DNA of 64,000 nt from Nitrospina sp. (GTDB lineage Bacteria > Nitrospinota > Nitrospinia > Nitrospinales > VA-1): contig JABIAY010000053.1 in NCBI GenBank assembly GCA_018653085.1, positions 1-64,000 on the forward strand. The letters are read 5' to 3'. Positions 43,040 through 54,752 of this stretch are shown piece by piece. Both the position numbers and the translations under genes were made by a program. The first letter of the stretch is position 1; each line of letters begins with the position of its first letter. The notes below the pieces were generated by a model, which worked only from the letters and a program-made list of their open reading frames with translations, was not told the origin of the DNA and searched no databases.

Positions 43040-43849
43040 CTATTCCGAGCGGATGTTCCCTGTCTCGGGCAGAGTCCGGTATTCATTGCCCGGAATGGGA
43101 GATTGGGATTCCATCTTTTCATGGGCGTGAGCATGACTGTCTTCCGGGAATGTAAACTCATCCGGATTGACGGTATGTGAATATCCATGCATCTGCATTA
43201 AAAATAAAAATGCTCCCGCAACAATCAGTCCGTTATTTGAGACGTTACTGATTTGCAGGAAAGACTGAGTGCGCCGCCATTTAAACAGCAGGGCAACCAT
43301 TAAACATAAAGCACTTATTTGCCCTAACTCAATCCCCAGGTTAAAGGAAAGGATTCGCCATATAATTCCTTCCTCCCCTAAAGGCAATTGCTGAAGCCTT
43401 GTGGACAATCCCAATCCGTGAATCAGGCCAAATATAAAAACGGCCCAAGTCAGATTAGGTGACTTTTCAAAAAATTTGCGGAATCCGCCAATATTTTCAT
43501 ACCCGATATAACAAACGCTCAAGGCGATCACGGCATCAATCAAAAAGTAGTTCACGGTAACCCCCATTAAGGTTGCTGTGACGAGGGTTACGCTGTGCCC
43601 TATTGTAAAGGCGGTGATGGTCTTGACCACATCCATGAAGGTAGTTAGAAAAAAGACAATGCCAAAGACAAACAAAAGATGATCGTAGCCTGTCAACATA
43701 TGGGTCGCGCCGATCTCCATGAACTGGAGATTCCCTCCCTGAAGAATCGTTTGCTTTTCTGCTTCTGACATCCCATGCGCATAAGCATAGGTGGCCCCGA
43801 ACAAAAACAAGGCAACGAAAAATATTTGATTTAAAAAAGTCTTATTCAT
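43040..43849 (-). CDS. HupE/UreJ-family membrane protein
   Basis: The 269-residue protein has a signal peptide (cleaved near YAYAHG) and about six helices. FMEIGATHMLTGYDHLLFVFGIVFFL (about residues 43-68), AFTIGHSVTLV and FGLIHGLGLSTRL are family motifs, including conserved His and Asp. HupE and UreJ proteins are linked to nickel uptake, but no hydrogenase or urease genes are nearby. A His-rich C-terminal tail (EDSHAHAHEKME) may bind metal. Confidence 0.88.
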   Translation of the reverse strand: MNKTFLNQIFFVALFLFGATYAYAHGMSEAEKQTILQGGNLQFMEIGATHMLTGYDHLLFVFGIVFFLTTFMDVVKTITAFTIGHSVTLVTATLMGVTVNYFLIDAVIALSVCYIGYENIGGFRKFFEKSPNLTWAVFIFGLIHGLGLSTRLQQLPLGEEGIIWRILSFNLGIELGQISALCLMVALLFKWRRTQSFLQISNVSNNGLIVAGAFLFLMQMHGYSHTVNPDEFTFPEDSHAHAHEKMESQSPIPGNEYRTLPETGNIRSE

Positions 43850-43980
43850 AGATATCTGGCACTCCCCTTATGTAGAACCTCATTGATGTGGATCAATAAG
43901 GAAGCGGTTATCGGCCAATACTATAGTAAAATAACCGGCATAAACAGCAAATATCCATCAGGAGCGGGGTATATTAAAAA

Positions 43981-45486
43981 ATGAGCTTAATGACCGCCAG
44001 ACCCTCTTCCGCTAAATTCGTTGTGGAAGATCCCTGTTTCCTTGATGTCGATCAACGTCTTGGTTGGCAAAGCCAGTTCGGTAACAACCATCCGCTAAAA
44101 CTGGAAATTGGTTTTGGCATGGGAGATTTCTTAATTGAAATGGCGACCCGAGAACCGCAAAGCAATTTTGTCGGCATAGATTTTTCTCAACATGGAATCA
44201 GAAAAATACTGGCGCGAATTCAAACCCATCAATTAAAAAATATTCGCGTTGTTCATGGAGATGTGCGGGAAAAAATCCCTCTTCTGTTTCACGATGGAGA
44301 ACTGGATACGGTCTATATAAATTTCCCCGATCCCTGGCCGAGAAAAAGGCATTTTAAACGCAGATTGATCAAGCCTGCTTTGGTGAAGTCGATCGCGCAG
44401 AAACTGGCTCCACAAGGCCGGGTTTATCTGGCCACCGACAGCGAGCCCTATGCCCTGGAAAGTCTCGAATATTTTAATGCGGAGCCTTTCTTCCAAAATG
44501 CGAATCCGGAAGTGGGCTTTTTCGCAGATCGTGACCACCTGCCGAAAACAAAATATGAAAAGAGTTTTATTTATGCCGGGGATAAAATCTGTTATCTGGA
44601 ATATTTTCGAGCGGATGAGAATGGCGGGCTCCTCAACAGGGAAGAAAGCGACAAGCTGAATCCACCTGAAGAGAAGTCGATGAGCAACGATGAACTGCTG
44701 ATTAAAAAATTTACCAAAGCAGAAGCTAAAGCGCAGGATGCCTGCGACCTTAAACAAGTTGCTGATAATTTGGCCGAAGCGGGGGACAAACAATGGGCCA
44801 AAAAAGTTTATAAAAAAGCCGAGGACAAAGCGGAAGACAGTCTGGACCTAAATTGGCTGGCATATAGTATTTGTGTAGTACTCGATGATAAAGACTGGGC
44901 CAGGGAGTTATACAAAAAGGCAGAAGACCAAAGCGAAAGCAGTCTGGATTTCAATTGGCTGGCGTATAGCATTTCGGAAACCCTGGGCGATAGCGATTGG
45001 GTGGAAAAGTTATTCCAGAAAGCCGAGAGCGCACCGGAAAATATTCGTGAACTCTGTGATCTTGCCGGTAGTATTTTAGAAATATTTGGTGACAGGCAAT
45101 GGGGAATAAAAGTTTATAAAAAAGCCGAAGGCCTGGCAGAAGAGTATTCTGATTTCTATGAGCTTGCCGGTAACATCTATGTGAAACTTGACGACAGAGA
45201 TTGGACGAGAAAATTATTCGAGAAAGCCGAAGGCAAGGCGGGAGATTGCAGTGACTTTCTTGGCCTGGCCGAGCACATTTGTGCAAACCTGGAGGACAAG
45301 GAATGGGCCAAAAAAGTTTATGCTAAAGCGGAAAGCCTGGCTGAGGACAGTGGAGATTTTTGTGAACTCGCCGAAAGCCTGAGTAAACAACTAGGGGATG
45401 ATGAATGGGCAAAGCAGGTCTATCTAAAAGTTGAAAGCAAGACGAAAGACTCTTTGAACCTCAAACGTCCCATTGGCGAGGCATAG
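43981..45486 (+). CDS. trmB: tRNA (guanine-N7)-methyltransferase fused to seven 34-residue repeats
   Basis: Residues 1-215 form TrmB, which makes m7G46 in tRNA. LEIGFGMGDFLIEMA is the SAM loop, VGIDFSQHGI comes next, and INFPDPWPRKRHFKRRL (about residues 111-127) is the TrmB signature. TrmB normally ends here. Instead a linker and seven repeats of exactly 34 residues follow (about 257-494), with pattern D-hydrophobic-x-x-LA-x(7-8)-D-x-x-W-x-x-x-hydrophobic-x-KAE. The length matches TPR/Sel1-like alpha-hairpins. No stop or frameshift separates the parts. The repeat tail may bind tRNA or proteins; its role is unknown. Confidence 0.9.
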   Translation: MSLMTARPSSAKFVVEDPCFLDVDQRLGWQSQFGNNHPLKLEIGFGMGDFLIEMATREPQSNFVGIDFSQHGIRKILARIQTHQLKNIRVVHGDVREKIPLLFHDGELDTVYINFPDPWPRKRHFKRRLIKPALVKSIAQKLAPQGRVYLATDSEPYALESLEYFNAEPFFQNANPEVGFFADRDHLPKTKYEKSFIYAGDKICYLEYFRADENGGLLNREESDKLNPPEEKSMSNDELLIKKFTKAEAKAQDACDLKQVADNLAEAGDKQWAKKVYKKAEDKAEDSLDLNWLAYSICVVLDDKDWARELYKKAEDQSESSLDFNWLAYSISETLGDSDWVEKLFQKAESAPENIRELCDLAGSILEIFGDRQWGIKVYKKAEGLAEEYSDFYELAGNIYVKLDDRDWTRKLFEKAEGKAGDCSDFLGLAEHICANLEDKEWAKKVYAKAESLAEDSGDFCELAESLSKQLGDDEWAKQVYLKVESKTKDSLNLKRPIGEA

Positions 45487-45537
45487 TTAGCGGGTTTGCC
45501 CGATAACAGAAATTAAAATTTGATTCTTGGGAAAAAT

Positions 45538-46053
45538 ATGAACTATTCAAAGCCATTATTTACCGAGCATGAAATTAAGGCCAGGGTCAAGGAGATCGCC
45601 GAAACTATTACAAAAGATTACAAGGGCAAGGATGTTTTGGTGGTGGGTGTCCTCAAGGGGGCTTGCGTATTCCTATCTGATCTCATACGGCTTATTGATT
45701 TGCCCGTTACTGTTGATTTCGTTATTGCTTCAAGTTATGTTAAAAGCGAATCATCCCGAGACATACAAATTCATTATAGTATGAGAGAGGCTGTCAAAAA
45801 TAAGGCGGTCCTCATTGTTGAGGATATTGTTGATACAGGTTTTACTGCTAAACACCTTATAGATCTGATAGCCAGTAAATCCCCGGAATCTATTAAAGTC
45901 TGCACGCTTTTGAATAAGAAAGACAGAAGGCGGGTAGAGGTGCCTTTGGATTATGTTGGTTTTGAAATTCCGGATTTGTTTGTTGTGGGCTATGGGATGG
46001 ATTATGAAAATCAATTCAGAAACCTTCCCTTTGTTAAAGTGATTGAAGTTTAA
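45538..46053 (+). CDS. hpt: Hypoxanthine phosphoribosyltransferase
   Basis: Salvages hypoxanthine or guanine to the nucleotide using PRPP. The 171-residue protein has VLVVGVLKGACVFLSDLIR (PPi loop), VDFVIASSYV, and the PRPP motif VLIVEDIVDTGFTAKHL (about residues 94-110). GIGMDYE is represented by VGYGMDYENQFRNLPFV near the end. The ATG at 45538 has GGGAAAAAT upstream; an earlier in-frame start at 45520 is less likely. The adjacent binding protein of the BMP family often binds nucleosides, which fits purine salvage. Confidence 0.93.
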   Translation: MNYSKPLFTEHEIKARVKEIAETITKDYKGKDVLVVGVLKGACVFLSDLIRLIDLPVTVDFVIASSYVKSESSRDIQIHYSMREAVKNKAVLIVEDIVDTGFTAKHLIDLIASKSPESIKVCTLLNKKDRRRVEVPLDYVGFEIPDLFVVGYGMDYENQFRNLPFVKVIEV

Positions 46054-46179
46054 ACTTGATTTATTTGTTAGAGGAATCCTGAAGAGGACTTTGCCTGTTC
46101 TCGCATATGTGGGTGAGAAAGACGGTGTTTTCAAAGATTCTCTTGTTCCTTTAGAATTAATTTTAGGTTGCTGATTAAC

Positions 46180-47268
46180 ATGATAAAAAAAACAACCCTT
46201 ATTTTGTTAATGTTTTTATTTGCACTTTTTGACCTGTTTCAAACAGGTGCAAATGCCAAAGAACTCAAGGTTGGGTTCATTTATTTGTCATCGGCTAAAG
46301 ATGCAGGTTGGTCTTATTCTCATGATCTTGGTCGACAAAGGGTTTCGAAAATACCTGGGGTTACCACAAACTTTGTGGAGTCAATAAATGATAGAGAGAG
46401 TACTTATATTGAACCCGTAATTCGTCATATGGCGCAAAGTAACTATGATTTAATATTTGCCACAAGTTATGGTTATTCAGATGCGGTTCTTAAGCTAGCA
46501 CCCCAATTTCCTAACGTGATTTTTATGCACTGCGGAGGTAATTCACCAGGGGCAAGTAATATGGGTACCTATTATGGCCGCATGTATGAAGCACGATATT
46601 TAACGGGGATGGTTGCCGGTGGAATGACACGCAGTAATATTATCGGTTATGTGGCGGCGTACCCCATTCAGGAGGTTGTCAGGGGGATAAACGCTTTTGC
46701 GCTGGGTGTTTGGGAGGTAAACCCCGATGCCAGAATATTGGTCCGTTGGACAAAAGACTGGAATAATCCTCTCAAAGAAAAACAGGTTGCCAGTGAATTG
46801 ATAGAGCTGAACGCGGATGTCTTAACTCAGCATCAGGATTCCCCTGCTATTCAGATAGTGGCGGAAAAACGGGGCGTTTATTCCATTGGGCATAATCATG
46901 ATATGAGTTCTTTTGCTCCGAAAGCCCATCTCACCGCATCCATTTGGAATTGGGGTAAAGTTTATGCAAACGTTATTCAAGCGGTTTCAGATGGCAGTTG
47001 GAAAAGTGAAAACATTTGGTGGGGGCTTGAAAAAGGTTTGGTTGATATCGCTTCTTTCGGACCCATGGTTCCTGAAAAACTGAGGGAAAAGGTGCTCCGC
47101 AAGAAGAAAGATATTATTTCTAATAAATTTTCAGTATTCACCGGACCGCTTTTGGATCAGGAGGGAAATGTTAAGGTTGTCGCGGGAAAACAGGCCACAG
47201 ATGAGGAACTCCTGATGATGGATTGGTTTTTAAAAGGGGTTGTTGGAAAGGCAGACTCCAAAAACTAA
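46180..47268 (+). CDS. BMP-family substrate-binding protein (PnrA/Med type)
   Basis: The 362-residue exported protein has a signal peptide (hydrophobic residues 7-20, cleavage near ANAKE) and no lipobox. The BMP domain has LKVGFIYLSSAKDAGWSYSHDLGRQRV, IEPVIRHMAQSNYDLIFATSYGYSD, FMHCGGN and GYVAAYPIQEVVRGINAFALGVWEVNP. Such proteins bind purine nucleosides or related compounds. No permease or ATPase follows; a sensor kinase gene starts 76 bp downstream, so it may serve as a periplasmic sensor subunit. Confidence 0.9.
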   Translation: MIKKTTLILLMFLFALFDLFQTGANAKELKVGFIYLSSAKDAGWSYSHDLGRQRVSKIPGVTTNFVESINDRESTYIEPVIRHMAQSNYDLIFATSYGYSDAVLKLAPQFPNVIFMHCGGNSPGASNMGTYYGRMYEARYLTGMVAGGMTRSNIIGYVAAYPIQEVVRGINAFALGVWEVNPDARILVRWTKDWNNPLKEKQVASELIELNADVLTQHQDSPAIQIVAEKRGVYSIGHNHDMSSFAPKAHLTASIWNWGKVYANVIQAVSDGSWKSENIWWGLEKGLVDIASFGPMVPEKLREKVLRKKKDIISNKFSVFTGPLLDQEGNVKVVAGKQATDEELLMMDWFLKGVVGKADSKN

Positions 47269-47343
47269 AGAAATCGATTAACAGGTGTTGGGCACCCTAA
47301 TATAATCCGAAGGGCTGGAGGTCGCAGAGGTAAAGTATTAATT

Positions 47344-49827
47344 ATGTCTATCCGATTAAAGCTGTGGATTCAAACTCTGATTCCAATATTATTTATTGCT
47401 GTTTTTGGAATTATTTCCATGCTGTGGATAACCTATTCCCAGCAGCGCAAATTAATCCACGAAACCTTAATTTCAAATAATAACCAACTGGAAAATGAAA
47501 TTAAATTTACCGCGAATAATTTTGAAAAAACCCTGTCCGATCATGTCAATAAAAAACAATTTGTCAATCCTGCCCGCGCATTATTCAAAATAACCGATAG
47601 CATTGCGGGTTTAAAAAAGACCTTCCAATGTAAAGCCATATCCCAGCTCCAGCAATTACTACGAAACGAAGAGTTTGATTGGGTTGCTCTTTATGATCTT
47701 GATGGCATAGTCTCTCGCGCTGAAAAAGATGCAATTTATGTGACCGGTCCACTCAAGGGTGGCAGGAAATATTACACTCCTGCCGCAACATCCGTTTTAC
47801 ATCAATGCTCTTCTATTGAGTGGCGGCGGGTTGAATTCCATTCAGAATTGCAGAAGAAAATAGACATCCCTTCTAATCAGTTAATAAATTTTTCAGTTGA
47901 TGAAGGAGCATTAATCCTGACTGGAGTTATTCCAGTAAAAGATATGCTATTCAAGGATGGAGAAGAAAGTTTGAATTCCATCGGTGCTATTTTCTTAAAA
48001 CAAAGTCTTGCAAATGATTTTATGGAAAAATTTTCTAATAAAACTTCTTTGGCGGGTGATATTTTTTCGCTAACAGGCGAAAACATTGCGGGATCACAGG
48101 TTGGTAAAATCAAGGATTTGCCCATTGATATCAAAAATAAATTTGATGGGAAGTTGTTTGCCGAAATTAATTTTGGCGGCGATGATTATTTTATGTTGGT
48201 CCGCACCTATTATCACCACGGCAAGCCTGCTTTCCTGATGGCCTCATATAGCTCGAAAGAAACAGTAATCAGCAATAGTAAGAACGTATTATTTCTGCAG
48301 ATTGCAGGGTTAGTTGCCGGCGTGATTATTGCTACTTTAATAGCTCTGTTTACCGGAAGATTTATTGCTGTCCCAATTCGAAAGATAATTGGGCAAATGG
48401 ACGAGATCGCCAGTGAAAAACGTTTTGCAGGTCGGGTAGAAGTTAAATCTCAAGATGAGTTGGGCAAATTAGCCGAAGCATTTAATAAAATGGCAAGAAT
48501 ATTAGAAACCAGAGATTCTGAAATTTCTGGTTATGTAAATGAACTTGATAAGATGAATAAGGTTTTAACCGAACGGAGTAAAAACCTGGAAAAAACAGTG
48601 GAGGGGAGTGAAAATAAATACCAGACCTTATCAGATCAATTGACCGCGATTATTAAGGGAACTGCCTCTGATACGGGAGAAGAATTTTTCAGATCTCTCG
48701 TGAAAAATTTAGCCGAGGCGCTCAATGTTCGGTATGCGTTTATTGGAGTCCTGCAGAAAGATTCTTTAGATGAAATTCAGACCTTAGCTTTATGGGACGG
48801 TCAGAAGTTTGTAGATAGTTTTAGCTATAATATGACCGGTGGGCCCTGTGCGCTAACTCTGGAAAGCAGAATCAAATTTTATCCCCATAAAGTGCAAAAC
48901 CTGTTTCCTGATGATCCTTATTTAGCCGAATGGAAAATTGATAGTTATTTAGGGGTGCGTTTATTAGATTCCGCAGGAAAAGCCCTGGGAGTTTTAGCCG
49001 TAATGGATGAAAAACCCATGGACAATACGGTTAACGCTGAATCTATAATCACCATTTTCTCTACCAGGGCCGAAGCTGAGATTGAGAGACTTTTCGCCAT
49101 GAATAAGTTAAACAATTATGCCAAAGAGTTAGAGCGAAGCAATGCGGAGCTTACAAACTTTGCTTCGATCGCTTCTCATGATTTAGTTGAGCCTCTTCGA
49201 AAGATAAATGCCTTTGGGGAGCGTTTGAAAAGAAGGTTGGCACATGCAGATGATGAGAGTGTTCATGATATTAATCGTATGCAAGATGGAACAGTTCGTA
49301 TGCAAGGGCTCATTGACGACTTGCTGAATTACGCAAAGGTAACCACCAAGGCTCAACCATTTGAAACGGTTAATATTAATCAAATTATAGATGAAGCTTT
49401 GTATTGTCTGGAGGGCAGTATTTATGAGTCCAAAGGTGTTGTTGAAATAGAGGCCTTGCCAATGGTGGAAGCAGACCCCATTCAGATTCGGCAGTTATTT
49501 CAGAATTTAATTGGGAATTCTCTTAAATACTGCGAAAAAGGAGTGGCCCCTGTTGTTCATATTTTTAGTCAACCCGCGCCCGATGATAAAATAAATATTT
49601 TTATAAAAGATAATGGAATTGGATTTGAGGAAGAATATGCAGACAAGATTTTTGGATTATTCCGGAGGTTGCATGGAAAAGGTGAATATAGTGGAACGGG
49701 AATGGGGTTGGCCATCTGTAGGAAAATTGTTGAACGCCATGGCGGAACCCTTAGAGCGGAGAGTGTTTTAGGAGAAGGCTCAACCTTCATTGTCACTCTC
49801 CCCAAAAAACAAAACCTGGAAAATTAA
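47344..49827 (+). CDS. Hybrid-input sensor histidine kinase (periplasmic sensor, HAMP, GAF, HisKA, HATPase)
   Basis: The 827-residue inner-membrane kinase has helices at about residues 7-30 and 318-342, flanking a ~290-residue periplasmic domain. HAMP follows (FTGRFIAVPIRKIIGQMDEIA), then a coiled coil (about 380-430), a GAF-like domain (about 435-600; VRYAFIGVL, GGPCALTLES), an H-box FASIASHDLVEPLRKINAFGERL (about residue 615, the phospho-His), N-box NLIGNSLKYC, G1 DNGIGFEEEYADKIFGLF and G2 GTGMGLAICRKI. It probably senses the neighbouring BMP protein's ligand. No response regulator is adjacent. Confidence 0.93.
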   Translation: MSIRLKLWIQTLIPILFIAVFGIISMLWITYSQQRKLIHETLISNNNQLENEIKFTANNFEKTLSDHVNKKQFVNPARALFKITDSIAGLKKTFQCKAISQLQQLLRNEEFDWVALYDLDGIVSRAEKDAIYVTGPLKGGRKYYTPAATSVLHQCSSIEWRRVEFHSELQKKIDIPSNQLINFSVDEGALILTGVIPVKDMLFKDGEESLNSIGAIFLKQSLANDFMEKFSNKTSLAGDIFSLTGENIAGSQVGKIKDLPIDIKNKFDGKLFAEINFGGDDYFMLVRTYYHHGKPAFLMASYSSKETVISNSKNVLFLQIAGLVAGVIIATLIALFTGRFIAVPIRKIIGQMDEIASEKRFAGRVEVKSQDELGKLAEAFNKMARILETRDSEISGYVNELDKMNKVLTERSKNLEKTVEGSENKYQTLSDQLTAIIKGTASDTGEEFFRSLVKNLAEALNVRYAFIGVLQKDSLDEIQTLALWDGQKFVDSFSYNMTGGPCALTLESRIKFYPHKVQNLFPDDPYLAEWKIDSYLGVRLLDSAGKALGVLAVMDEKPMDNTVNAESIITIFSTRAEAEIERLFAMNKLNNYAKELERSNAELTNFASIASHDLVEPLRKINAFGERLKRRLAHADDESVHDINRMQDGTVRMQGLIDDLLNYAKVTTKAQPFETVNINQIIDEALYCLEGSIYESKGVVEIEALPMVEADPIQIRQLFQNLIGNSLKYCEKGVAPVVHIFSQPAPDDKINIFIKDNGIGFEEEYADKIFGLFRRLHGKGEYSGTGMGLAICRKIVERHGGTLRAESVLGEGSTFIVTLPKKQNLEN

Positions 49828-49871
49828 CATATTGAAGCCGAGCAGGTTTATCTAAAAGCCGTTGCACATTG

Positions 49872-49905
49872 CCCCCGCAGCTAGTGCGGGGGGATTTAAT
49901 TTTAA
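49872..49905. terminator. Bidirectional terminator between convergent genes
   Basis: CCCCCGCA GCTAG TGCGGGGG (49872-49892) forms an eight-pair GC stem followed by ATTTAATTTTAATT. It lies between the kinase stop (49827) and the SDR stop (49906). A T-rich stretch on the plus side and the stem's symmetry suit both directions. Confidence 0.7.
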
Positions 49906-50637
49906 TTAAGTTCTACCGTGAACATAACCGCCATCGACTGGCAGGATTATGCCTGTGGTAAAACTCGCGGTTGCAAGGTGAATCACCGCCTCGGTAATTT
50001 CCTGCACTTCACCCACCCGGTTCATTAAAGCTACGCCTCCAAAGGCATCGACATCCGCATCGCCATAAAGAGGTGTTCTGATAGCACCGGGAGCAACAGC
50101 ATTCACCTGGATGTTGTCGACTGCAAGCTCGCTGGCGAGACTGGTTGTCAATGCGTGGACGCCTCCTTTGGTGATCAGCGCCGCGCTCGCAGGCAGGCTG
50201 GCCATTGAATGTGTGATGAGCACGGTACCGATGTTGACGATACTGCCGCCGCCCTGTTTCTTCATCTGCCTGACAACTGCCTGTGTTACGAAATAGGTTC
50301 CTTTCAGGTTGATGTGGATATATTTATCGATATCTTCCTCGGTATTTTCCAGGAATGGTTTCGCTCCAAAGATCCCGGCATTGTTGACGAGCACATCTGC
50401 ACTGTCGAATCGTTCAACCGCCGTGCGGACCAACTTTTCCCCAGTCTCTTTATTACCGATATCTCCCGGCACGATGGCAATCCTTTTTTCATCGCCCAGT
50501 TTTTGGGCCGCGTTAGCGAGCTTCTCGCTGTTGCGTGCATTCATAACGATATTGGAGCCTCGCTCGAGGAATCCCCTGGCGACATCGAGTCCGATACCGC
50601 TTGATGCACCTGTGATTAATACTGTTTTGGTTGTCAT
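49906..50637 (-). CDS. Short-chain dehydrogenase/reductase lacking the catalytic tyrosine
   Basis: The 243-residue protein has the Rossmann motif TGASSGIG (residues 8-15), NNAG (about 87-90) and the downstream NAVAPGAIRTPL segment. The usual YxxxK is replaced by ALITK, and NISS by NIGT, so two of the three catalytic residues are changed. It may bind NAD(P) without normal reductase activity, or use another residue. It is the third gene of an operon after DsrE and PNPOx. Confidence 0.9.
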   Translation of the reverse strand: MTTKTVLITGASSGIGLDVARGFLERGSNIVMNARNSEKLANAAQKLGDEKRIAIVPGDIGNKETGEKLVRTAVERFDSADVLVNNAGIFGAKPFLENTEEDIDKYIHINLKGTYFVTQAVVRQMKKQGGGSIVNIGTVLITHSMASLPASAALITKGGVHALTTSLASELAVDNIQVNAVAPGAIRTPLYGDADVDAFGGVALMNRVGEVQEITEAVIHLATASFTTGIILPVDGGYVHGRT

Positions 50638-50655
50638 TTAATTTTCTCCTTTAAT

Positions 50656-51234
50656 TTAGATTGTTTCAATCTGGTCTAATTTCACCAGGCCTTTTTGAAT
50701 CTCTTCTTTTGTATAACGGGGAGTTATATGTTGCGGGCAGTTCCAGTCAAAGGCATGGACCTTAAAGATAAAGAATCGTTCAATAGTGGCTTCGTAATCC
50801 GGCATTTTAAATTTTTCCAGCAACTCAGGATGGTCGGCGGCGTGAAGCACTTCCGCTTCTGCCCAGATTTTTAATCTCTGCTGTTGGGTGTAATCCATAA
50901 GAAAAAGGACAGTCTTCTTAGTGGCGTTAAAATTTCCCGTGCTGATGTATTGCCCGTTGCCTCGGAAATCGGCAAATCCAATTGTGTTTTCATCAATGAC
51001 TTTTAAAAATCCTTTGGGTCCGCCACGAAACTGCATATACGGCCAACCGTTTTCACCTACCGAAGACATATAAAAACTGTCCCTGTCTTTGATATAAGCC
51101 TTTTCCTGCCAGGTGAGCGTGTTGCGAAATTCATCTCTACTCTCCATCTTTTGATAAGGGGCCCGGGTGCCATATTTTTCCTGAACTTTTCGGACACTGT
51201 CGTTGAACGCGAATTCCATAAAATGTTTTGCCAT
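50656..51234 (-). CDS. Pyridoxamine 5'-phosphate oxidase-like flavoprotein
   Basis: The 192-residue protein is a split-barrel, putative FMN-binding protein of the PNPOx-like superfamily. RDSFYMSSVGENGWPYMQFRGGPKGFLKVIDENTIGFADFRGNGQYISTGNF (about residues 50-102) is the conserved FMN-binding strand set, followed by KTVLFLMDYTQQQRLKIWAEAEV. It is unlikely to be the true vitamin B6 enzyme because the length and C-terminus differ. The ATG at 51234 follows AAGGAAACC. It lies between the DsrE and SDR genes in one operon. Confidence 0.85.
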   Translation of the reverse strand: MAKHFMEFAFNDSVRKVQEKYGTRAPYQKMESRDEFRNTLTWQEKAYIKDRDSFYMSSVGENGWPYMQFRGGPKGFLKVIDENTIGFADFRGNGQYISTGNFNATKKTVLFLMDYTQQQRLKIWAEAEVLHAADHPELLEKFKMPDYEATIERFFIFKVHAFDWNCPQHITPRYTKEEIQKGLVKLDQIETI

Positions 51235-51295
51235 GACTTGGTTTCCTTTTTTCAAAAGTTGAAAGCATATCCCCCGCATAAAGCCTTATTTGTTT

Positions 51296-51658
51296 TCAGA
51301 ATGTGAGGACATTAAATCCCTGCTCTTGTAATTTGCTGAGGCTGGGAAGCCCGGTTGTTTTTGGCACCGAGTTATCCTTGATCAGGTCGTAGCCGTTGGT
51401 GTTGGCACCGAATACATCGGCACAGGCGCAGGAAACTCCCGTGATCTTGTCGGCAACGGCTTCAAACAATTCGTGCGCAGGATGATCTTCTTTCTCCAGC
51501 ACTTCAGGCCATCTCGTACCGGTGCCTTGAAACAGAATGGATACTTCCTTGCCAGCATTTTTGTAATCGTAAGCTGTGGCCAGGGCATTGAAGACTCGCC
51601 CTAAAGATTCTTCTGATTCGTTTTTGGGGTCCGAAAGAACAACGATTGCGGTTTTCAT
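51296..51658 (-). CDS. DsrE/F-like protein
   Basis: The 120-residue protein has the DsrE fold (TAIVVLSDPKNESEESLGRVFNALATAYDYKNAGKEVSILFQGTGTRW). CACADVFG near residue 85 provides two candidate active cysteines. DsrE-family proteins transfer sulfur or act as NAD/thiol-linked partners; this copy is of the stand-alone peroxiredoxin-like or sulfur-relay type and cannot be assigned precisely. GAGGAAATCAAA precedes the ATG. It is the first gene of a three-gene, sigma54-promoted operon. Confidence 0.85.
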   Translation of the reverse strand: MKTAIVVLSDPKNESEESLGRVFNALATAYDYKNAGKEVSILFQGTGTRWPEVLEKEDHPAHELFEAVADKITGVSCACADVFGANTNGYDLIKDNSVPKTTGLPSLSKLQEQGFNVLTF

Positions 51659-51726
51659 TTTGATTTCCTCAAATTTTAGTTTCAAAGTTATGCCGAGTTC
51701 TGTGTCGGCTTTTATGGATTGTATAG

Positions 51727-51742
51727 AGCAGTTTCTGTGCCA
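51727..51742 (-). promoter_or_regulatory. Sigma54-type promoter for the DsrE-PNPOx-SDR operon
   Basis: On the minus strand TGGCAC AGAAA CTGCT matches the -24/-12 consensus, with GG and GC separated by exactly ten bases. It lies 69 bp before the DsrE start. The divergent gene encodes a sigma54 activator, which supports its function. Confidence 0.85.
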
Positions 51743-51813
51743 AAAATAAAATTTGCATATAACCCGTTATTTTTAAATAAGTTATAGGTTTTTGTGGTGC
51801 TGTCAGAGAGTGT

Positions 51814-51840
51814 CGAAATTTCGTTATTAGCGAAATTTAG
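51814..51840. promoter_or_regulatory. Probable activator-binding sites (UAS)
   Basis: CGAAATTTCG (51814-51823) is a perfect palindrome, and CGAAATTTAG (51831-51840) is a near copy 17 bp further. They sit 75-100 bp upstream of the sigma54 -24 box and just before the activator gene, the usual place for enhancer sites. Whether the activator also represses itself is unknown. Confidence 0.65.
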
Positions 51841-51906
51841 CTAATAAAATTTATATTTTAACGATTTTTCGTGGATTCGAAAGGTCGATGGGAATATACT
51901 AAAACC

Positions 51907-53379
51907 ATGAAACCGGACTCAAAGAGCAGCCCACAATCGGAACCGCAGGAATTAAAAGAAGCTCTGCACCTGAACAAGTTGATCCTGGAATCGGCGGGAG
52001 AGGGAATCTACGGTATTGACCTTGAAGGAATGACGACCTTTATCAACCCGGCGGCAGAAAAGATGACCGGATACTCGGCCCAGGAAATGATCGACAACTG
52101 TCAGCACAAGCTGGTTCATCATTCGAGGCCGGATGGAACTCCCTATCCTCAAGAGGAATGCCCCATCTACGCCGCATTCCGAAAGGGAAAGGTGTTTCAC
52201 ACATCAGAAGAAGTTTTTTGGCGCAAAGATGGCACCCCCTTCCCGGTAGAGTATGTCAGCACTCCCATTTACGAAAATATGAAACTAAAGGGCGCGGTGG
52301 TTGTCTTTAAAGATTTAACCGAGCGAAAGCGGGCCGAAGAGGAAATCCAATGTTTGCGTCGTCAATTGGAATTGGAAAACGCCTATCTCAATGAAGAGGT
52401 GCTGGATGCCCAGGCCTATGGAGATATTATTGGTGGCAGTCCCGCATTGGAAACCCTCTTGCGACAGATCGCAATGGTGGGTCCTACCGATGCCAGCGTT
52501 CTCATTACAGGCGAGTCGGGAACCGGCAAGGAACTTGTGGCTCGGGAAATCCATAACCGCAGTTCGCGTAGCTCGCGCACCATGATCAAAGTCAATTGCG
52601 CTTCTATTCCAAAGGAACTTTATGAGAGCGAGTTCTTTGGGCACGTGAAGGGTGCTTTCACAGGCGCTATAAAAGACAGGGCAGGGCGATTCCAACTTGC
52701 TGACGGGGGAACTTTATTTCTTGATGAGATCGGGGAAGTTCCTTTAGACCTTCAGAGCAAACTTTTGCGTGTGTTGCAGGAAGGAACCTTTGAAAGGATC
52801 GGTGATGAAAAGACTCTGCAGGCAGATGTGCGAATCATAGCGGCAACGAACCGATCTTTAAAAGAAGAGGTGGAAACAAAACGTTTTCGTCAGGACCTTT
52901 ATTACCGTTTAAATGTATTTCCCATAGAGGTTCCGCCACTGCGCTCTCGAAAAGAAGACATCCCGATGCTGGCCTCAAGTTTTCTTGAGCTGGCCTCGAG
53001 AAAATTAAAACTGCCTCTTCCCAAACTGACCCAGGCGAATATGATTGCGCTACAAGGTTACGATTGGCCGGGCAATGTGCGAGAGTTACAAAACGTGATT
53101 GAACGAGCCGTAATAACTTCGCGGTCAGGTAAAGTTTCATTCAATCTAGCCAAAGAAAACAAACAATACCCCGCGGCTAAGGCGAAGCAGGCGGATGCAA
53201 AAGTCAGTATTCTCACTGAAGAAGAAATGAAATTGCGTGATCGGGAGAATATATTGAATGCCTTGAATCAGTGTAACTGGAAGATCACAGGAACAGATGG
53301 CGCCGCAGAGCAATTGGCAATGAAACCCACCACGCTACACTCAAAAATTAAAAAGATGGGCCTTAAAAGACCGAGTTAG
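51907..53379 (+). CDS. PAS domain sigma54-dependent transcriptional activator (NtrC family)
   Basis: The 490-residue protein has a PAS domain (about residues 22-135; [31 protein letters not shown]), a linker and the AAA+ domain. [15 protein letters not shown] (Walker A, about 201-215), GAFTGA (sigma54 contact), [15 protein letters not shown] (Walker B) and the Arg-finger region [20 protein letters not shown] and [20 protein letters not shown] follow. A Fis-type helix-turn-helix is at the end ([21 protein letters not shown]). The PAS domain likely senses a small ligand or redox state. The ATG at 51907 was chosen; a GTG at 51871 is also in frame. It faces the DsrE operon. Confidence 0.94.
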
Positions 53380-53387
53380 CTGGTCCA

Positions 53388-54752
53388 CTAGTGGGGAAAA
53401 AATTTGGCAAGGAAGACGATGCCAACGGCAATGGGGGTGATATAGCGGATGAGGAACCCCCAGCTTTGCGCCCAGGGAAACCCAAACTTGTTTTCATGTT
53501 TCTCGATTTCCTCATGCGCGTTTTTTGTACCCCACACCCAGCCCACGAAAACCGCCATCAACATGCCGCCTAAAGGCAAAAGGTAGTTGGAAGCGATGTT
53601 ATCGATATGATCGAAAAAGTTCATGCCGAACAGTTTTGCATCTGCCATTACGCCGAACGACAAACCGCTGGGAACGCCAAACGCGAAAATCGCGAAGCCA
53701 ACAAGCAGAACAGCTTTTTTCCGTTCCCATCCGAGCTGGTCAATGAAGTAGGCCACGACCACTTCCAATAAAGAAATTCCTGATGTGATAGCGGCAATGG
53801 CCAGCAGGATGAAAAAGATAACGGCTACACCATGACCGAGCGGCATATCGGCAAACACCGTAGGTAGAACGCTGAAAACCAGCCCAGGGCCTTCGGTGGG
53901 TTCGAGTCCCATCGCGAATACCGCTGGGAAAATGACCATGCCGACCATAAGTGCGATGAGTGTGTCGAACATCACCACATAAACGGTGGAAGAGGCCAGA
54001 CTTTCTTTGTCCGACAGGTAACTGCCGTAAGTGATCATGCACCCCATCCCCAAACTGAGTGAAAAGAAAGCTTGCCCCAGTGCAATGAGCACCACGTTGG
54101 CGTTGATCTTGCTAAAGTCAGGAGTCAAATAAAAGGCAACGCCTTCCATCGCGCCATCAAGAGTGAGTGCGCGGAGCATCAGCAGAAGCAGGATGACGAC
54201 CAGAGTTGGCATGAGGATGTCGCAGGCTTTTTCAATGCCGCCATGCACGCCTCTTAAGACGATGGCGATACAGGTCCCCATGAACAGCGCGTGGTAGAAA
54301 AGAACCTCCCATGTGTTTCCTATAAAATTTCCAAAAAACTCTCCCGCTTCTTTGGGGGAAGGAAACGCCAGCACGGAGCCGGTGATGGATTTTGCCACGT
54401 AAGCGAATGTCCAGCCGCCAACGACCCCGTAAAAGGAGAGGATGAAGAACCCGGCTAGCACGCCCATATAACCGATGCCGATCCAGGGCGAATTGGGTTT
54501 GAGTTGGTCGAACGCGCCGACAGGATTGCGGTTGGTTTTTCGGCCCAGGGTAAATTCAGCCAGCATGATGGGGGTGCCGATCACGAAGATGCAAACCAGA
54601 TAAATGAGCACAAACGCTCCGCCGCCGTTTTGCCCTACTATATAAGGAAACTTCCAGATATTGCCGAGTCCGACTGCGGAACCGGAAGCGGCCAGGATGA
54701 ATCCCATACGACTGCCCCAGAACCCGCGCTGATTATTGTTTTCGGTCTTCAT
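53388..54752 (-). CDS. Sodium:neurotransmitter symporter family (NSS/SNF) transporter
   Basis: The 454-residue protein has about 11-12 helices. GFILAASGSAVGLGNIWKFPYIVGQNGGGAFVLIYLVC (about residues 12-50) contains the Na+/substrate unwound helix 1, and SLSLGMGCMITYGSYL is the helix 6-7 signature. Members such as LeuT carry amino acids with sodium. Substrate not assignable. It converges with the sigma54 activator eight bases apart and shares none of its regulation. Confidence 0.93.
   Translation of the reverse strand: MKTENNNQRGFWGSRMGFILAASGSAVGLGNIWKFPYIVGQNGGGAFVLIYLVCIFVIGTPIMLAEFTLGRKTNRNPVGAFDQLKPNSPWIGIGYMGVLAGFFILSFYGVVGGWTFAYVAKSITGSVLAFPSPKEAGEFFGNFIGNTWEVLFYHALFMGTCIAIVLRGVHGGIEKACDILMPTLVVILLLLMLRALTLDGAMEGVAFYLTPDFSKINANVVLIALGQAFFSLSLGMGCMITYGSYLSDKESLASSTVYVVMFDTLIALMVGMVIFPAVFAMGLEPTEGPGLVFSVLPTVFADMPLGHGVAVIFFILLAIAAITSGISLLEVVVAYFIDQLGWERKKAVLLVGFAIFAFGVPSGLSFGVMADAKLFGMNFFDHIDNIASNYLLPLGGMLMAVFVGWVWGTKNAHEEIEKHENKFGFPWAQSWGFLIRYITPIAVGIVFLAKFFPH

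Follow-up and report, generated by a model that had tools for sequence, protein, structure and literature searches.

A second, repeat-bearing TrmB-type tRNA methyltransferase in several genera of Nitrospinota

In this work, the window is a DNA stretch of 64,000 nucleotides from Nitrospina sp. (assembly GCA_018653085.1, contig JABIAY010000053.1, positions 1-64,000, forward strand). It carries a gene in which a TrmB methyltransferase domain is joined, through a poorly conserved linker, to an arm of seven 34-residue repeats. The features of this gene are as follows, with the evidence for each given in brackets.

43981..45486, + strand: whole gene, 501 aa and stop, TrmB paralog with a predicted C-terminal TPR-like solenoid (single open frame)
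43981..44601, + strand: TrmB methyltransferase domain, residues 1-207, family match 28-203 (TIGR00091, PF02390, Foldseek)
44329..44331, + strand: Asp117 codon, equivalent of E. coli TrmB Asp144 (alignment to 3dxx; invariant in 22 fused proteins)
44602..44682, + strand: poorly conserved linker, residues 208-234 (column identity, omega, pLDDT)
44686..44730, + strand: predicted N-terminal capping helix of the solenoid, residues 236-250 (AlphaFold model)
44737..44838, + strand: repeat 1, residues 253-286 (predicted helices and repeat scoring, as for all repeats below)
44839..44940, + strand: repeat 2, residues 287-320, NWLAYS motif
44941..45042, + strand: repeat 3, residues 321-354, NWLAYS motif
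45043..45144, + strand: repeat 4, residues 355-388, near-invariant RELCDLA motif
45145..45246, + strand: repeat 5, residues 389-422
45247..45348, + strand: repeat 6, residues 423-456
45349..45450, + strand: repeat 7, residues 457-490

The first part of the fused protein was recognized by the curated TrmB equivalog model TIGR00091 (150.8 bits, cut-off 112.65, 2.9e-44) and by Pfam PF02390 (7.2e-48). Together with the seven scored units lying in the same 501-aa frame, these matches bear out the first-pass annotation, which had described TrmB followed in frame by seven repeats. Mean column identity among the fused proteins is 0.79 in the TrmB part and 0.69-0.81 in the repeats, but only 0.40 in the linker, where AlphaFold confidence (pLDDT) is low at residues 215-231.

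In a set of 60 related genomes and the window's own, the full fused architecture was read in one frame in 22 genomes (the window genome and 21 relatives), all of different species, with protein lengths of 476-592 aa. This recurrence, which the first-pass annotation had proposed to look for, rules out the assembly error that it had considered as an alternative. It had also pointed to the MSND segment (about residue 234) as a possible separate start giving two proteins; the Met, however, is present only in the window and its closest relative (L003), while the equivalent segment elsewhere reads LSND, VSND, ISND, KSND, LNND etc. (E also occurs), with no conserved Met and with the frame unbroken.

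A profile of the repeat matched 32 of 77 Nitrospinota genomes, 30 of them through the fused gene and two weakly (G055 and G059); the G055 match (G055:C153), once read, looks like a receiver-TPR protein. Divided by genus code, the fused gene is present in 12/16 genomes of g1, 8/9 of g6, 8/8 of g7, 1/1 of g9 and 1/1 of g16. Apart from these two weak matches, no further carrier of the repeat was obtained: among the proteins of its own genome only the fused gene matched, and none was found in viral contigs, phages or plasmids. A scan of 85,000 species, done with a pair of narrow peptide patterns drawn from repeats 2 and 3, by which distant relatives could be missed, returned 29 loci, 28 titled Nitrospina, Nitrospinaceae or Nitrospinota and one titled Emcibacteraceae. 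In the latter (L070, JAJFIR010000037.1) the neighbours of the fused gene match the Nitrospinota ones, and the contig is probably misbinned. Uncultivated marine nitrite oxidisers are among the carriers, most of which are metagenome-assembled genomes; one is named LS_NOB. The fused gene is absent from three same-genus relatives (G005, G006 and G007) and is therefore not essential in all. Several genera of Nitrospinota share the fusion as an accessory gene, a fact that, like the presence of an ordinary TrmB beside it, had escaped the first-pass annotation.

In g1 and g6 the fused gene occupies a variable slot near genes for HupE/UreJ, an AIR-synthase (PurM-like) and an SNF symporter, and the gene next along is a putative uvrC. 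In G007 the HupE gene, the symporter gene and the gene after it are present with no fusion between them, and in G006 the symporter side is likewise present without the fusion. The slot, bounded by HupE/UreJ and the SNF symporter, spans 43040-54752 in the window and its cargo differs per genome: here it includes a phosphoribosyltransferase, a Bmp-type binding protein, a histidine kinase and more, in other genomes kinase fragments or other short genes. In g7 the fused gene lies in a different neighbourhood, where (L039 10302-14512; L077) paralogous small proteins sharing an NGDGT(V/I)SD/TD motif are encoded in a row near it.

An ordinary TrmB is encoded in the same genome on another contig (G000:C43) by a 225-codon frame whose product is 68% identical to the fused copy; both proteins exceed the TIGR00091 cut-off. 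Among 23 genomes carrying the fused gene, the ordinary TrmB was undetected in four (G004, G015, G030 and G031), about what the summed incompleteness of the 23 genomes (~3.3 genomes) predicts. Replacement of the ordinary enzyme by the fused one is thus unsupported, and the latter was added, not swapped in. One further genome (G028; f1 g8, 96% complete) gave no TrmB match whatever at E 0.001.

The maximum-likelihood tree built on TrmB domains unites all 22 fused copies in a single clade (99/94). This clade groups with ordinary TrmB copies from g1 and g6 (100/100), while the ordinary TrmB of g7, g9 and g16 is placed elsewhere. Inside a genus, fused TrmB domains are less alike than ordinary ones; for g1 median identities are 77% and 85%, respectively, the ordinary being the more similar in 45/45 pairs. 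Between g1 and g7, g9 or g16 the relation is reversed, the fused domain being the more similar in 49/50 pairs. Such a reversal suggests that one ancestral fusion spread horizontally, and from the sequences it looks as if the gene has passed between genera in this way. The AU test (p 0.11) does not reject an old duplication followed by losses, though the identities favour transfer.

The catalytic and tRNA-binding residues described for E. coli TrmB are D144, H151, R154, R155, D180, T217 and E220, and replacement of D144 by Ala abolishes activity (PMC10130221). In the alignment to 3dxx they correspond to D117, H124, R127, R128, D153, T190 and E193 of the window copy, which keeps all seven, plus the equivalent of T179; the equivalent of E. 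coli Arg26 falls outside the aligned part. Throughout the 22 fused copies variation was noticed only at R127 (E. coli R154; L in one) and T190 (E. coli T217; S in two), with Asp117 unchanged. Omega is ~0.1 in the TrmB half as well as in the repeat half, and in the linker mostly 0.2-0.65, above both halves in nearly all pairs; these values show similar purifying selection on both domains. Beside the T190/E193 motif, Ser195 (44563-44565) and Tyr198 (44572-44574) are fixed or nearly so in the fused copies; at both sites the ordinary TrmB of g1 and g6 has Asn (in 17/18 at the site of Tyr198). From the retained residues we infer that the methyltransferase half probably still methylates tRNA.

The periodicity of the C-terminal part is strict in length but not in sequence. 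Spacing between the seven scoring units equals 34 in 6/6 intervals, so the "exact 34-residue repeats" of the first-pass annotation are exact as to their length; at an offset of 34, however, only 89 positions of the tail (37%) are identical. This is still far above offsets other than multiples of 34 (~2-12%) and above 2000 shuffled tails, which reached at most 33 matches at the same offset. When phased on predicted helices the units cover residues 253-490, with the capping helix (236-250) ahead of them. Almost no tandem repeats were found by a DNA repeat search, as expected for old and diverged repeats.

The TPR consensus is W4-L7-G8-Y11-A20-F24-A27-P32. In the arm, L7, A8 and V/I/L11 are present, as are the helix-B Ala, Tyr and Ala, shifted by one, while W4 and P32 are absent and a conserved Trp stands ahead of the helix-B Ala. 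The closest sequence models are weak TPR matches: the window repeats reach 17.9 bits with Pfam TPR_8, under the cut-off of 25.7, and for this reason we call the arm TPR-like and do not assign it to the TPR family; the repeats of relatives reach TPR_2 at 1e-8. Membership in the PPR family is not indicated either, as the unit has 34 residues against 35 in PPR. The first-pass annotation had compared the repeats to TPR/Sel1 hairpins; the TPR side of this comparison agrees with the models described below, while for Sel1 no match was listed for the window protein, nor was this model among the top families of its relatives.

An AlphaFold model built with the family alignment (mean pLDDT 85.8, pTM 0.81) contains a TrmB fold and 15 helices, i.e. 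the cap and seven hairpins, and the arm modelled alone reaches pLDDT 93. Structure prediction, suggested with the first-pass annotation, thus returned both a TrmB fold and a TPR-like solenoid. For the first half the best Foldseek match was E. coli TrmB 3dxz (E 1.1e-14). For the arm it was the consensus/designed 8-repeat TPR superhelix CTPR8 (8chy), followed closely by designed RNA-binding proteins of the PPR type and by other TPR proteins. TM-scores of the top arm matches were only ~0.35-0.48, so the geometry of the superhelix differs. The arm is accordingly predicted by these models to be a TPR-like solenoid of helical hairpins, each unit contributing a pair of antiparallel helices to the stack. 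As a pTM of 0.81 is hard to reach without a fixed relative orientation, the model also suggests that the TrmB domain and the arm are packed in a defined way.

To rank groove positions we used the 22 related sequences, with the register taken from predicted helices, and scored positions that differ between repeats yet are fixed between species. The top-ranked positions were 6, 2, 1, 5 and 9. In TPR co-crystals peptides are contacted at positions 2, 5, 6, 9, 12 and 13, with 33 and 34 on the same face (PMC1261162), and this set of eight outscores random sets in the arm (permutation p 0.0025). Its score of 0.75 is nearly equalled by registers shifted by 1 and 2 (0.71 and 0.67), because the ligand positions cluster mostly on one helix. 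At positions 2, 5, 6 and 9 repeats 2 and 3 have Leu, Asn, Trp and Tyr, the groove Asn and Trp being N291/W292 and N325/W326, while in repeats 4 to 7 position 6, position 9 or both are acidic. The arm as a whole is acidic in 22/22 members (pI 4.4-5.8, net charge -5 to -28). An acidic arm with a conserved groove that is first aromatic and then acidic favours docking of a protein or a basic peptide over RNA binding. Of the two functions that the first-pass annotation had offered for the arm, docking therefore stays plausible and RNA binding becomes the less likely one.

The explanation that we prefer, and consider somewhat better than an even chance, is that of an active TrmB paralog with a TPR-like protein-docking arm, next to an ordinary TrmB doing the housekeeping methylation. 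According to it, a lineage-specific second tRNA (guanine-46-N7) methyltransferase TrmB would have gained a C-terminal solenoid of seven hairpins, whose concave groove, offering Asn-Trp/Tyr pockets (repeats 2-3) and acidic side chains (repeats 4-7), may hold a partner protein or basic peptide. The arm would then bring the methyltransferase to the bound partner, with housekeeping methylation left to the ordinary enzyme. A more far-reaching proposal, rather doubtful at present, is a horizontally spread accessory m7G methyltransferase with an in-cis targeting subunit, an independent counterpart of METTL1-WDR4 that would direct methylation to a partner complex or a tRNA subset.

Direct binding of tRNA by the arm, raising affinity or selecting a tRNA subset in a one-chain version of the role that WDR4/Trm82 has for METTL1/Trm8, seems to us improbable. 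It draws on the eukaryotic non-catalytic repeat subunit, which touches tRNA and raises the affinity for it (PMC10130221: ~90 nM, as compared with ~6 uM in E. coli TrmB), on the C-terminal extension of A. aeolicus TrmB, which influences fidelity (PMC6320965), and on the designed PPR proteins among the Foldseek matches; but the negative charge of every member, the Asp/Glu residues in the conserved groove of repeats 4-7 and a unit one residue shorter than that of PPR all speak against it. The same acidity could serve autoinhibition, with the arm folded against the positive, tRNA-binding surface of its own TrmB and the enzyme kept off until its release by a partner. The defined two-domain packing suggested by the pTM would suit such an arrangement, while a variable linker modelled at low confidence would not, and we hold it more doubtful still. 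Least probable among these alternatives is that the fused copy lost tRNA methylation, the TrmB fold being a scaffold only or methylating another substrate. The faster divergence of the fused than of the ordinary TrmB in g1 (77% vs 85%, 45/45 pairs) and the clade-specific S195 and Y198 adjoining the T190/E193 motif are consistent with such a loss; against it stand omega of ~0.1 and the catalytic residues that could be compared, of which the window copy retains every one and the 21 remaining copies nearly every one.

Both building blocks of the fused protein are known. The fold and catalytic residues are those of E. coli TrmB (3dxx/3dxz) and B. subtilis TrmB (2fca), and the same reaction is likely; the crystallised chains of these enzymes, however, have ~213-218 residues and no solenoid, whereas the fused second copy has seven TPR-like repeats. 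With the TPR domains of CTPR8 (8chy) and G055:C153 the arm shares 34-residue hairpins, Leu7, a small residue at 8, a hydrophobic one at 11 and the Ala/aromatic/Ala of helix B, but it differs by having neither Trp4 nor Pro32, by the Trp before the helix-B Ala and by the shift of helix B by one residue relative to helix A.

TrmB has been extended or fused otherwise before. The thermophilic enzyme of Aquifex aeolicus is also C-terminally extended, by an element of stability and fidelity for which the accessible text of PMC6320965 does not describe a solenoid. In the models NF010719 (396-position TrmB model) and NF002421 (PrmC-TrmB, 524 positions) TrmB is joined to further sequence too, in these cases placed in front, the TrmB match starting at model positions 120 and 347, respectively; the arm matches neither. 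METTL1-WDR4 and Trm8-Trm82 likewise combine a TrmB-family catalytic subunit with a repeat protein, but WDR4/Trm82 is a seven-bladed beta-propeller on a separate chain, while the arm of the fused TrmB is an acidic alpha-solenoid predicted within the same chain. Our literature search found no paper on TrmB together with Nitrospina, and none combining TrmB, tetratricopeptide, fusion, methyltransferase and tRNA; a conserved second TrmB copy with a repeat arm, seemingly moving between genera, is absent from the literature searched.

Bacterial TrmB has generally been studied as a compact lone enzyme, while in eukaryotes a separate repeat protein is required. A conserved second TrmB bearing an arm would offer a natural experiment on the ways in which tRNA-modifying enzymes gain targeting or regulation. 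Among the known nitrite oxidisers of the ocean water column, marine Nitrospinota are described as the most dominant (PMC10839748), and the role of the fused TrmB may bear on translation control in these bacteria.
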